From assembly GCF_018882415.1 (NCBI RefSeq), contig NZ_JACVOL010000001.1:458253-522252 (forward strand): a DNA stretch of 64,000 nt, given 5' to 3'. This stretch comes from Polynucleobacter sp. 86C-FISCH (GTDB lineage: Bacteria > Pseudomonadota > Gammaproteobacteria > Burkholderiales > Burkholderiaceae). A model generated the notes under the pieces. That model saw only the letters and a list, made by a program, of their open reading frames with translations. It was not told where the DNA came from and made no database searches. The translations under genes and the position numbers were made by a program. Below are positions 1 to 3,677 of the stretch, in pieces (position 1 is the first letter of the stretch; each line of letters opens with the position of its first letter).

Positions 1-42
1 GAGCCTCCTCAGAAACCTCCGACAGGCAGTATGGGCAATTCA

Positions 43-480
43 TTATTTATTTACTACTAGATTCATTACAGAATTTGTTTCACGACCTTCGGAATCTTTT
101 ACAGTCACGCGGATGGTATGCGTTCCTGGAGGCACATCCGCTTTTGCAAAATCAATGCCATTAGCGGAGATCGCACTTTTAAGACGAGGGGTGAGATCAA
201 CAAAGGGTGACTTCATATATACGACTTTTACTGAACTGGGATCAATCTTTGCATCACCACGTGCCTCAAAATTCACTTTGAAATCAAATGGAGCAACTAC
301 TGGGGTGTCAGCTTCAGGAGACGCTAATTTAATTGCTGGGCCACGAGAAATTCCTCGAGTTGCCAAAGCTCCTGAGGCTGGAGGCAAAGCTGCCTCTTTT
401 GCGCTGATCAAAGGTGCAGAGATGGCTAATTGGGAAGCAGTTAATACGAGTGAGGCGAACAATACTTTAGTGAATTTCAT
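43..480 (-). CDS. Small exported protein, partner of the TPR-CHAT gene
   Basis: A 145-residue protein with a clear Sec signal peptide: basic N-terminus, hydrophobic core to about residue 20, and a likely cut after AISA. The mature part is about 120 residues. Its second half (about 60-143) alternates short hydrophobic strands and ends in a PPGTHTIRVTVKDSEG stretch, which resembles the last strands of an immunoglobulin-like or cadherin-like beta sandwich. It lies 44 bases downstream of the CHAT gene on the same strand, with AAAGG ahead of the ATG, so the two are probably cotranscribed. I do not recognise a named family. The Ig-like fold and the partnership are inference; export is well supported. 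Confidence 0.75.
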   Translation of the reverse strand: MKFTKVLFASLVLTASQLAISAPLISAKEAALPPASGALATRGISRGPAIKLASPEADTPVVAPFDFKVNFEARGDAKIDPSSVKVVYMKSPFVDLTPRLKSAISANGIDFAKADVPPGTHTIRVTVKDSEGRETNSVMNLVVNK

Positions 481-524
481 AAAAGCCTTTAATAATTAAA
501 GTTACTCAATGGGTAGATCTTAAA

Positions 525-3500
525 TCAATCTCCAACCACCACGAACGGAGCCCAGAACAAGGGGTGGGCATAGGCATACTTCATACTGCCACCCTCCTTC
601 ATACCGCCTTGATCAATTTGGTTCAACATAGCCTGTCTCAAAAGCTCAGCCTTGCTGGTGCCTTGAGCTTTTTGTTGATTTCTAAACAAGTCCGTCATCA
701 TCGTTCTCGAGGCTACTGAGTCTACTGGCCAGTTAGAAACCAAAAGCGCTTTGGCGCCCGCAAAGAAGAAGGCTCTACCCAAACCTGATACCGCCTCTGA
801 GCCAGCACCCTCACCAGCAGCGGTATTACATGCTGACAGCACTACCCAGTCTGCATCCAATTTCAAGGTAATAACTTTATCCATAGTGAGCAAGCCATCA
901 TCTTTATCGCCAGTGACATCAGGGGATGACAAAGCAAGCGCTGGCTGAGTGAGGCCATTCAGCTCTCCTGGGACTAGGCCATGAGTAGCAAACATCACCA
1001 CCTTACGATTCGATAAGTCGGTTGACATCACTTGCTTCACGGAAGCCTGTTGATGCAAGAAGATATCCCCGTCTCCTGCGCCGATCGCTTTACCAATCTC
1101 CTCTAACTCAAGACTGGTATCAGGCAAGCGGGGTAAGAGCGCCAACTCGGCAGAGCTCACACCCGAAGTCTTCGGCGCACTCCGTAAAGACAGCGGAATA
1201 CCACGTGTTGCCAATTGCGTCGCTTTTGCTTGCTTTTGCGCAGTCTTCTCTTGCTCGCTACTGAAGTAAGGATCACCAAAGCCAATAAAGTTCTTACGAT
1301 TAGGGTTACCAGCTGGTAAGGCACGCAAGGCAGTCAATGCTGTCACAGATGGAACCTGAGCAACCGCAATATCCCTTGTCAGCCATGGCACAGTCTTATA
1401 GCCGCTAAATGGTGTAGCACCACCTTTAGCAGGCTGCGCTGTTGGCTTAGTTACTAACAACGATAAAGGTAACTGCCCAAGCTCAGCATGCGGCACTGTA
1501 AGCATGACCTTTTTACCCATAAAGGAACTTTGCACCGGCGCTAATACTTGCTGGTAAAGCTGATTTGCTAAGGCAACATCAAATGGCGGAATCTCATCAA
1601 TCGTAGCCACGCCAGGATCTAGCGATTTACGAAGCTGAGTTACCTCTTTAGCAACTTGATTGCGACCGACTGATAGCTGAGCAAATTGCACTGGCTTATC
1701 TTTAGTGATCGCCCATACATACCCCACGTTATCGGCAAAATACCAAGAGATTAAAACCTCATCAGGCTTAAGCGCTTTTTGAGCCCGCTCTACTGAAGCA
1801 GGCTTAGGTTCAACCAACTCAGCATAATCCGGAAACTTACGCTCAATCTCTTTTTTAATATCTTCTCGTTGAGATTTAAAGCTGGCAATATCTGTACGAA
1901 TCTTTGCCTGAACGGCTGGAAGTTGTTGTTCTGAGGGTGCAGACAATAGTCCAGTTAAAAGCTCAGAGAGTGTATTAATGCGTTGCTGTAAATCCTGCTC
2001 GCGCCTCGCCAATGAGGCTAGCTGCGGATCAGAAATGTTTGCCCGTGCTGCGCTAGAAGTCAAAGCGCGCTGCACCCCACTGCCACGCGCAAGATCTGCA
2101 ATTTGAAAGGCTTCAGCAGCAGCAGCGCTGGAGGGGTCTGCCTTAGCTTGCTGAGCAAGTGAAGCTAAGTACTCCTCCAAAACAAAAGTCATTCTTTGGG
2201 TTTGACGTATTGTTGAGGTTGCATTCTCTGAATCATTGCGCGCCTGATCAATCAAAATTGGAATCGACTGCTTAAATTCAGTCAGCGCACTAGAGCCCTG
2301 CCCAGACACTTGGAGAGCTGATGCATTAAATGCCCTGATCATTGCAAGACGCGGAGAGCTCTTTTCCATTCGTGCGCCCGCCTTAGAAAGCATGTCCGCA
2401 GTCATTTTTTCAGCTTGAGATGCTTTACCCGTTTTAATCAAAGCGATGGCCCAGTCTAGGTCACCAGATTGATAACGAGAGGCAATTTCTGGATCGCCCT
2501 TAAGACCTTCTACCATTTCAGTAAAGACCTTATCAGCCGGCAAATACTTACCATCTGCAGCCAGTGCAGTGGCTAATGCCTTTCTGGTAGCAGCTATTAA
2601 GGGTGATGCGGAATAATTTGTAGATTGCTGCGCCACCTTAAGAGCTGCTTGAGACAATAAAACCGCCTCGGCTTGGCGACCTTGTTCGCTAATAATTTTT
2701 GAGAGGGTTAGCAAAGCAAAGCAGGTGCTTGCAGAATTTACCCCCTCACGATTAATGGCCAATACAACAGACTCCCTGGCCCAATATTCAGCATCCATTA
2801 AGCGTCGCTGTCCCAGAAATGCATTTGCCATTTCGTTATACAAATGAATTCTTTGTGCGTAAGCGTATCTTGGCGTACTTGAAATATCCTGCAACACCCT
2901 AACTTCATTATCTAACGCGTCTTTATTACTATCTTTAACGTTATCAAGGATCGTTTTATTTAAGCCAAGAGCGGTTTTGAAACTTCTTTCCGCTTCAATA
3001 AACTTGCCTTCCGACATAAATACTCGGCCACGAGCACGTTCATAACCCAACTGCCAGTTAGTTTTATATATAAAATTCGGATTTCTAGCCACGCTTATTA
3101 AGTTTGAGTAATCATTTTCAAGGGTGGCCAATGCTTTATTAGCGCACTCAAAGTCACCCATCCGCAAACAGATGTTTACGATTGTTTGCCCAATACTTAT
3201 TCTCCAGCCAGCAAGGTTATTGGGAACCATTGCTCTTGTATCTTCCAGAGTTTTCTTGGCAAGAACAAGGTTGCCCCTTAATGCCTCCTGCTGGGCATAA
3301 TTCGCTCTTTCATCAAGCTGCATGGCCATATCACTACTGGGATAATCGAGTGCAGCTTTTCTATAATTCTCTAAAGCTTCTTTGCTGTTTTCCAGAGCGG
3401 TTTCGGCAACGGCTCGCTGATAGTAGTAGTGATTCAGAGCATTTGAGTCATTTGTCGATGGCGGAGATTTGGCAAGAACTTTTTTGGCCTTATCTATAAG

Positions 3501-3677
3501 GCTTTGATCTTGCCGAGTATGGCTCAATATCTGCAATATATCTTTTACATCTCTGGGAGGAGCCTTTACATTCTCGACATCCACTTCATCTTTAGTAGGC
3601 GCTGCAATTAAAGGATTCGACACCACCGCTATGGTGCAGCACAATAATAATGATTGAATTAGTGAGAGCTTACGCAC
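525..3677 (-). CDS. Exported TPR-CHAT domain protein (caspase-like peptidase fold)
   Basis: A 1050-residue protein. It starts at GTG with TAGGAG six bases upstream and has a signal peptide ending near PLIAA, so it is probably periplasmic or surface-exposed. Residues about 60-480 are helical, TPR-like repeats. A charged, coiled-coil-like stretch follows at about 545-620. The C-terminal part, about 680-1050, is a CHAT domain with both residues of the caspase-type dyad: His899 in FATHG and Cys950 in LSACNTAAGEG. CHAT domains are known as peptidases (separase/caspase relatives), often joined to TPRs. The substrate is unknown. An inverted-repeat region lies just upstream and a small exported protein downstream. 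The family call is firm; peptidase activity is inferred from the intact dyad. Confidence 0.9.
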   Translation of the reverse strand: MRKLSLIQSLLLCCTIAVVSNPLIAAPTKDEVDVENVKAPPRDVKDILQILSHTRQDQSLIDKAKKVLAKSPPSTNDSNALNHYYYQRAVAETALENSKEALENYRKAALDYPSSDMAMQLDERANYAQQEALRGNLVLAKKTLEDTRAMVPNNLAGWRISIGQTIVNICLRMGDFECANKALATLENDYSNLISVARNPNFIYKTNWQLGYERARGRVFMSEGKFIEAERSFKTALGLNKTILDNVKDSNKDALDNEVRVLQDISSTPRYAYAQRIHLYNEMANAFLGQRRLMDAEYWARESVVLAINREGVNSASTCFALLTLSKIISEQGRQAEAVLLSQAALKVAQQSTNYSASPLIAATRKALATALAADGKYLPADKVFTEMVEGLKGDPEIASRYQSGDLDWAIALIKTGKASQAEKMTADMLSKAGARMEKSSPRLAMIRAFNASALQVSGQGSSALTEFKQSIPILIDQARNDSENATSTIRQTQRMTFVLEEYLASLAQQAKADPSSAAAAEAFQIADLARGSGVQRALTSSAARANISDPQLASLARREQDLQQRINTLSELLTGLLSAPSEQQLPAVQAKIRTDIASFKSQREDIKKEIERKFPDYAELVEPKPASVERAQKALKPDEVLISWYFADNVGYVWAITKDKPVQFAQLSVGRNQVAKEVTQLRKSLDPGVATIDEIPPFDVALANQLYQQVLAPVQSSFMGKKVMLTVPHAELGQLPLSLLVTKPTAQPAKGGATPFSGYKTVPWLTRDIAVAQVPSVTALTALRALPAGNPNRKNFIGFGDPYFSSEQEKTAQKQAKATQLATRGIPLSLRSAPKTSGVSSAELALLPRLPDTSLELEEIGKAIGAGDGDIFLHQQASVKQVMSTDLSNRKVVMFATHGLVPGELNGLTQPALALSSPDVTGDKDDGLLTMDKVITLKLDADWVVLSACNTAAGEGAGSEAVSGLGRAFFFAGAKALLVSNWPVDSVASRTMMTDLFRNQQKAQGTSKAELLRQAMLNQIDQGGMKEGGSMKYAYAHPLFWAPFVVVGD

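Follow-up and report, generated by a model that had tools for sequence, protein, structure and literature searches.

The 64,000-nt stretch of the Polynucleobacter sp. 86C-FISCH genome analysed here (hereafter the window) carries at its left edge the genes of a predicted exported TPR-CHAT protease of the caspase fold (CHAT), a small, predicted exported Ig-like protein (IG) and a zinc-ribbon membrane protein (ZR). We find that the adjacency of CHAT and IG is conserved well beyond chance, and that caspases of the Peptidase_C14 family (C14) occupy the place of CHAT beside the same IG-ZR pair in other genomes. That the trio stays together through this swap of enzyme suggests a switch at the cell envelope, for signalling or defence, that has not been described before. 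An original prediction, made from the letters of the window, had described a pair of genes: the CHAT-IG pairing held, and the unit proved to be a trio with ZR in which CHAT is replaceable by C14. The coordinates of CHAT and IG, the 44-base gap that places IG downstream of CHAT and the numbering of the catalytic dyad as His899/Cys950 were exact.

Conservation of the CHAT-IG-ZR neighbourhood

When the window's own sequences were searched against the family, CHAT was found in 16 of 150 genomes and IG in 2 of 150. Across 186 genomes of the genus, CHAT was detected in 55, ZR in 56 and C14 in 34, the CHAT and C14 tallies including fragments and distant CHATs. CHAT was present in 47 of the 56 ZR-positive genus genomes versus 8 of the 130 ZR-negative ones; for CHAT or C14 anywhere in the genome, the counts were 55/56 versus 18/130 (Fisher P = 3.7e-30, ignoring kinship). 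Nine ZR-positive genomes lacked CHAT. Eight of these hold C14 somewhere, either adjoining IG-ZR (G169, G222, G228, G241, G295 and G306) or elsewhere (G235 and G294); in the ninth, G271, the assembly is fragmented and the contig breaks off at IG. A profile search for IG returned 54 named loci (Polynucleobacter, Curvibacter, Hylemonella, Jezberella, a Comamonas metagenome-assembled genome and unclassified metagenome-assembled genomes), with matches in 16 of 399 genomes of the order (E 0.01) and 12 of 398 of the phylum, and a weak match in G330 (E 0.003).

To describe the neighbourhood, we tallied 89 IG genes, mostly from Burkholderiales, counting as distinct those that differ in the last 110 residues; the named and unnamed loci of this tally overlap and were merged by sequence only. 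The nearest protease within 6 kb, scored with home-made models (CHAT >40 bits, C14 >100 bits), was CHAT in 61 cases and C14 in 20, with neither found in 8. In 52 of the 61 loci with CHAT, no more than 100 bases separate it from IG, which is the adjacency in relatives on which the original prediction had been staked. For seven of the eight protease-less loci, the contig stops no more than 2.4 kb away from IG, which may have cut off a protease partner; at two contig-end loci, L124 and L142, the usual upstream side of IG holds another gene. Of the 80 loci with a ZR, 73 have it on the strand of IG and no more than 20 bases away. Chance adjacency of CHAT and IG is rejected by the neighbourhood counts together with the co-occurrence in the genus.

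Duplicated and decayed copies were also seen. At L078 (G167:C3:31000-50000), IG has a tandem pair of CHAT genes next to it (69% and 63% identity to the CHAT of the window), and the ZR gene there is broken by a stop. In G103, CHAT copies are broken off by four contig ends (L079-L082, contigs C1, C2, C3 and C6) at residues 588 and 1010, a pattern resembling the assembly collapse of two copies whose catalytic halves are identical. Decayed CHAT copies with internal stops or deletions occur in L010 (G094), L052 (G182) and G181:C1:1066534-1069211, and are consistent with repeated loss.

Two caspase-fold families beside the same partner genes

C14 takes the protease place beside IG in Polynucleobacter (for example L138, L145, L146 and L154), in Jezberella (L156), in other Burkholderiales (L183, L184, L186 and L187) and, outside Burkholderiales but within the phylum, in L209, L211 and L219. 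The last three loci are probably alphaproteobacterial, because the IGs of their group are 41-46% identical to that of a Bradyrhizobium plasmid and the adjacent DNA best matches alphaproteobacterial records; the same is true of the DNA beside a CHAT-bearing sister, L214. All seven IG-linked C14 proteins that were scanned exceeded the Pfam cut-off, some of the IG-linked C14s bear Tat-like signals, and one has Sel1 repeats.

Both enzymes keep their catalytic residues. His899 and Cys950 are invariant in 51/51 complete CHATs (>900 residues and >300 bits, the window's own included, a few not beside IG), as the original prediction had expected of homologues, and the catalytic His and Cys are invariant in 19/19 C14 proteins (>250 bits). 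Since the dyads are invariant, a reading of the protease as a pseudo-enzyme is unsupported. Two caspase-fold families serve the same IG-ZR pair, and nothing argues more strongly for the importance of proteolysis than this sharing of partner genes.

A second caspase-like gene (C14 plus DUF4384) follows the IG-linked C14 at L187:12812-14524, and weaker matches stand in the same place in L183, L184 and L186.

An Arg-Gly motif common to IG and CHAT

Between its signal peptide and its Ig domain, IG holds a conserved segment, LIxxxEAxLP, followed by the linker TRGISRGP. The form TRGI[SATV]RGP was found in 70 of the 78 distinct IGs of a first set; relaxed to R(x)G[ILV]xR[GA]P, the motif is present in 85 of the 89. 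Because the linker codons vary synonymously among IG genes, it is the peptide and not the DNA that is kept. Weighted conservation of R42, G43, R46, G47 and P48 is 0.78-1.00, compared with a mean of 0.59 for mature IG, and is similar to that of the Ig core.

A matching island, LATRGxPLxLR, is present in most CHAT relatives, in an otherwise variable loop before the catalytic His that is modelled as disordered (residues 815-852 of the window's CHAT, pLDDT, the predicted local distance difference test score, under 50). The LATRGI pattern occurs at exactly two sites in the 1.99-Mb genome, one in CHAT and one in IG (backward control, 0), and CHAT is the only one of 57 open reading frames in the window to have a 6-mer in common with IG (P = 0.018 with shuffled CHAT). 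Within the 130 residues before the catalytic His, [ST]RG was found in 58 of 64 IG-linked CHATs versus 3 of 15 other CHATs scored. Two of these three others, L220 and L230, are orphans of the same subfamily; truncated controls or those without the His pattern were left out of the set, and among these L006, L008, L013, L017 and L020 have TRG outside the 130-residue stretch. The six IG-linked CHATs without [ST]RG comprise a fragment (L107), an unscorable protein (L074) and those of L180, L182, L189 and L194, whose IGs read RGGLTRGP or RAGLTRGP or have no motif.

Considering both proteins, we think it probable that the IG linker is read by the protease active site, be it as substrate or as inhibitor. 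The protease-substrate relation put forward in the original prediction thus gains a conserved linker and a matching island in the protease; cleavage itself is a candidate event.

Proposed mechanism and alternatives

We propose that the exported caspase-fold protease (TPR-CHAT here, C14 elsewhere) carries a sensor region, represented here by the variable TPR, and that binding of a trigger to this region in the periplasm would activate the enzyme. Once active, the protease would cleave the R↓G-[ILV]-x-R-G-P linker of IG on the C-terminal side of Arg; for CHAT, self-cleavage at the ATR↓G of its loop is a further possibility. IG would thereby lose the link between its Ig domain and its N-terminal segment (about residues 22-42), which would alter its action on ZR; this polytopic protein would relay the signal to the cytoplasm through its N-terminal zinc ribbon and coiled coil. 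Gene order, the replacement of CHAT by C14, the dyads, the motifs and the variable sensor are observed; we infer cleavage, site, topology, signal direction and role alike, and give cleavage of IG by the protease with signalling through ZR an even chance.

The same motif evidence, the IG linker and the CHAT LATRG island, would also fit an IG that acts as a pseudo-substrate inhibitor or chaperone, its intact R-G linker occupying the active site and competing there with the CHAT LATRG loop until ZR or a ligand relieves the block. IG and the protease are made together, their genes being separated by 44 bases; a Pro on the primed side could make RGxRGP resistant to cleavage; and a passage of an earlier survey mentions, for Rhizobium, a metacaspase operon that combines functions of protease and of protease inhibition (PMC3501461). 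However, the stretch of the model that holds the IG motif is of lower certainty (block mean about 73) and probably flexible, as would suit a cleavable site, and no inhibitor family is found among the Pfam matches, although absence from match lists is not evidence of absence. We regard this alternative as unlikely.

Several observations weigh against cleavage of IG with signalling through ZR. IG cleavage is predicted from sequence, the topology of ZR is read from hydropathy alone, and the CHAT domain is modelled weakly (block means mostly 35-80). L110 (G235) is a complete locus without a protease beside IG-ZR, its C14 lying about 224 kb away, and ZR went undetected in 9 of the 89 IG loci, some of them cut by contig ends. 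C14 occurs without the system in 14 of the 130 ZR-negative genus genomes, and two Bradyrhizobium plasmids carry C14 without an annotated IG-like neighbour. As to the motif, the P value above is the probability of a common 6-mer by chance, our own estimate of the number of LATRGI-pattern sites expected in the genome is about 0.7, and covariation of the IG linker with the CHAT loop involves few lineages and is confounded by kinship (L180 and L182 belong to one genus). TRGI was sought in the C14 partners and not found, and their RGL/KGL, which follows the catalytic Cys, may be a general feature of C14. Finally, loci in which ZR is the constant partner retain the linker too, which could therefore bind ZR.

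In a further alternative, IG-ZR would form a constant receptor-transducer, the linker binding ZR, and the protease would act elsewhere, on a periplasmic loop of ZR or on envelope proteins. ZR is indeed the tightest neighbour of IG, and the linker is unchanged across the swap of CHAT and C14. Such an arrangement leaves the CHAT LATRG island unexplained, and the C14-linked IGs without a detected ZR (L209 and L211) keep RGIxR[GA]P, although a diverged ZR may be missed; we consider it improbable.

Apparent exchange of the sensor region and possible role of the system

Mean pairwise identity among the 51 CHATs rises from 0.38 (residues 1-150) to 0.82 (residues 900-1050). We compared 11 loci for exchange of the variable part. 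In the relatives closest by their flanks (L104, L085 and L086), the rfaD-like and cysM-like genes are 0.86-0.93 identical in DNA to those of the window, whereas CHAT residues 1-300 are only 0.35-0.50 identical; against the more distant species L088 and L089, the same residues are 0.75-0.91 identical. Identity to the L104 CHAT climbs from 0.49 (residues 150-300) through 0.78 to 0.96 (residues 450-600). Because near flanks go with a distant CHAT N-terminus, and the reverse holds for L088 and L089, the sensor halves appear to have been exchanged between species, as in conflict systems.

A variable, exchanged sensor and a patchy distribution together suggest a role in conflict (with phage, toxin or rival) or in an envelope-stress response. 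A housekeeping or stress module of the envelope with no conflict function, in which the variability would reflect varied self ligands, is compatible with any of the mechanisms above. In its favour, the window lineage holds the locus at a single chromosomal site between rfaD-like and comEA-like genes (named by eye), and IG was found in none of the phage records or viral contigs searched, while just two plasmid records of 72,556 had it (Variovorax and Bradyrhizobium). Against this, the system is present in a minority of genus genomes (56/186 by ZR) and at different chromosomal sites in different lineages, sensor alleles are exchanged between species, and tandem and decayed copies exist; we find such a role doubtful. 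Returning to the trio as a switch, the complete proposal, that interchangeable exported CHAT and C14 proteases with hypervariable, exchanged CHAT sensors cut IG at the Arg-Gly linker and signal inward via ZR as a periplasmic caspase switch, is put forward tentatively.

Predicted export and structure of the proteins

PF12770 matched the window's CHAT at 167 bits (cut-off 24) over residues 702-1050, which assigns it to the CHAT family, and the protein is the sole CHAT match at E 0.001 in the genome. Export was judged by a hydropathy rule, that is, by a hydrophobic N-terminal segment. By this rule, both CHAT and IG of the window begin with such a segment, in agreement with the signal peptide and the exported partner of the original prediction. 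The segment was called in 47/52 CHATs versus 268/786 other genes; of the five remaining CHATs, four miss the threshold narrowly and the fifth has a start that is too long. It was also called in 66/77 IGs and in 10/19 C14s, where the misses are mostly Tat-like or over-long starts.

The AlphaFold2 model of CHAT (mean pLDDT 71, 22 sequences) shows a confident TPR solenoid and a weak CHAT domain. Foldseek ranked human separase first (E 5.9e-10), DdvA, an anti-sigma factor with long helical repeats, fifth, and the Craspase TPR-CHAT protein (7xsq_B, E 1.1e-5) 28th. In a second structural look, plain TPR proteins came top (Z up to 26), with separase at Z of about 19-22 and a root-mean-square deviation (RMSD) of 8.7-12 Å over about 670-730 residues at 10-12% identity. 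Since plain TPR proteins outrank separase and the RMSD is high, the match of this model to separase is an architectural likeness only. Among PDB sequences, CHAT gave only TPR matches to kinesin light chain and one ribosomal protein (best E 0.076), and neither CHAT nor IG had a PHROG match up to E 0.1.

The IG model (mean pLDDT 84.9, 26 sequences) has block means of 90 (residues 21-30), 75 (31-40), 73 (41-50) and 88-95 from residue 51 on. It resembles Ig, PKD, FnIII and CopC-type beta-sandwiches in the PDB with weak-to-moderate matches (best Foldseek E 5.8e-4, template modelling score 0.63 by target length; best Z 8.5, RMSD 2.3 over 87 residues). The model thus classes IG as an Ig/PKD/FnIII-type beta-sandwich by likeness of fold, not by family membership, and bears out the possible Ig-like pattern noted in the letters. 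No Pfam match of IG reached the cut-off, and a search of PDB sequences gave one PKD-type match (E 0.39). No gasdermin family appeared among the Pfam matches of IG or ZR up to E 1, a family that sequence models can miss.

ZR begins with CPYC...CxxC, all four Cys being invariant in 13 aligned proteins, and continues with a likely coiled coil (by eye) and, by hydropathy, 3-5 hydrophobic segments in 69 relatives. Its zinc-ribbon matches in Pfam and PHROGs are below cut-off or short, and the name zinc ribbon comes from the four Cys and a depositor's label for a Variovorax relative. Nothing relevant was found among PDB sequences. An IG-ZR fusion suspected in L179 turned out to be overlapping reading frames: an intact IG with TRGITRGP, absent from the IG counts, adjoins ZR and CHAT there.

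Organisation of the locus

The left edge of the window cuts through the ZR gene, and a wider stretch, L002, was therefore also read. In L002, ZR and IG overlap by 1 nt (TAATG), and an alpha/beta-hydrolase-like gene (247 residues, exported) overlaps ZR by 11 nt, in apparent translational coupling. The hydrolase-like gene is kept in only some relatives, and Pfam matches of its product were all under the cut-off. In L075, L076 and L077, another exported hydrolase-like protein (about 272 residues, by eye) takes the hydrolase place, between ZR and CHAT, and CHAT is the last gene of the operon.

Features of the trio locus (window positions unless a contig is named)
Feature	Position	Strand	Remarks
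TPR-CHAT cysteine-protease-like protein, exported by the hydropathy rule	525..3677	-	1050 aa, GTG start; PF12770 match; dyad
TPR solenoid, residues about 45-530	2088..3545	-	AlphaFold2 model; first ~450 residues hypervariable by block identities
CHAT domain, residues 702-1050	528..1574	-	PF12770 match
Catalytic His899 codon	981..983	-	invariant in 51/51 CHATs
Catalytic Cys950 codon	828..830	-	invariant in 51/51 CHATs
LATRGI, residues 822-827, in disordered loop 815-852	1197..1214	-	candidate self-processing or pseudo-substrate site
IG, Ig-like protein, exported by the hydropathy rule	43..480	-	145 aa
IG linker TRGISRGP, residues 41-48	337..360	-	candidate Arg-Gly cleavage or docking site
IG Ig-like beta-sandwich, residues 49-145	46..336	-	AlphaFold2 model, PDB fold matches
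ZR gene, first 43 bases (zinc-ribbon membrane protein, 262 aa)	1..43	-	remainder left of window
ZR gene, entire	G000:C1:457507-458295	-	then exported hydrolase-like gene
Exported hydrolase-like gene	G000:C1:456774-457517		after ZR

Comparison with known systems

Separase, which acts on SCC1, likewise combines a helical-repeat arm with a caspase-like domain; it takes Arg at P1, is eukaryotic and is not exported. HetF/PatU3 pairs a heterocyst CHAT protease with a dedicated substrate in cytoplasmic developmental control, with no Ig or ZR protein. To our knowledge, the bacterial caspase relatives with known substrates that can be named all act inside the cell.

The closest worked example of the proposed logic is Craspase of type III-E CRISPR, in which, according to a passage of the published account, the CHAT protease Csx29 cuts its neighbour Csx30, which is proposed to free a sigma factor (PMC10028731). 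As in our proposal, a TPR and CHAT protease adjoins a protein substrate, and cleavage switches the partner (PMC10028731). In contrast, Csx29 acts with Cas7-11 and target RNA, whereas the window's protein is exported, has an exported Ig-like partner and a zinc-ribbon membrane protein as third member; the hydrophobic N-terminal segment of CHAT, called by the hydropathy rule, is at odds with the cytoplasmic location of Craspase. The BovA model of Borvo matched CHAT at 14.5 bits (E 0.0025) over residues 945-1003 only, which does not assign it to Borvo. A CRISPR, Borvo or phage origin was rejected, given this weak local match, no PHROG match and no IG in phages or viral contigs; Cas models were not run on the left 13 kb.

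Bacterial metacaspases and orthocaspases (Peptidase_C14) are the enzymes that stand in for CHAT beside IG-ZR. Passages in the literature state that orthocaspases cut after basic residues (PMC6426788) and report Arg/Lys specificity for the metacaspase/orthocaspase family (PMC6426788, PMC3501461). The operon section of the 2012 survey of this family names no Ig-like/zinc-ribbon partner pair (PMC3501461).

The original prediction had set an exported CHAT apart from cytoplasmic CHAT effectors, but export of a CHAT is not unusual by itself, as a second exported TPR-CHAT operon exists in Polynucleobacter (L221-L228, for example L225:155-11963). In L225 it comprises a two-partner secretion (TPS) adhesin, CHAT, a 263-residue protein without Pfam match, a CHASE2-cyclase and a ShlB/FhaC transporter. 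Unlike the trio, this TPS-linked operon has no IG or ZR match and no LATRG loop; the window locus, in turn, lacks the TPS adhesin and ShlB, and the genes downstream of its CHAT are IG, ZR and the hydrolase-like gene.

A caspase-fold protease with a dedicated neighbouring substrate is known as a kind. A trio of exported caspase-fold protease, IG and ZR is not described in the titles and abstract starts of the papers that searches of open-licence PubMed Central listed, a scope that leaves aside subscription papers and preprints; in that literature we found neither the exported form with Ig-like and zinc-ribbon membrane partners nor the interchange of CHAT and C14. Judging from the comparison of genomes, two caspase-fold families would share a dedicated substrate that is exported, a probable cleavage motif and a partner in the membrane. 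The question of what exported bacterial caspases cut, and why, becomes directly testable with three small genes, and the Polynucleobacter loci without a neighbouring protease, with tandem proteases or with decayed copies provide natural controls. If true, a periplasmic caspase switch would be an envelope-facing form of innate immunity, like the caspase or Craspase pathways but outside the cytoplasm.

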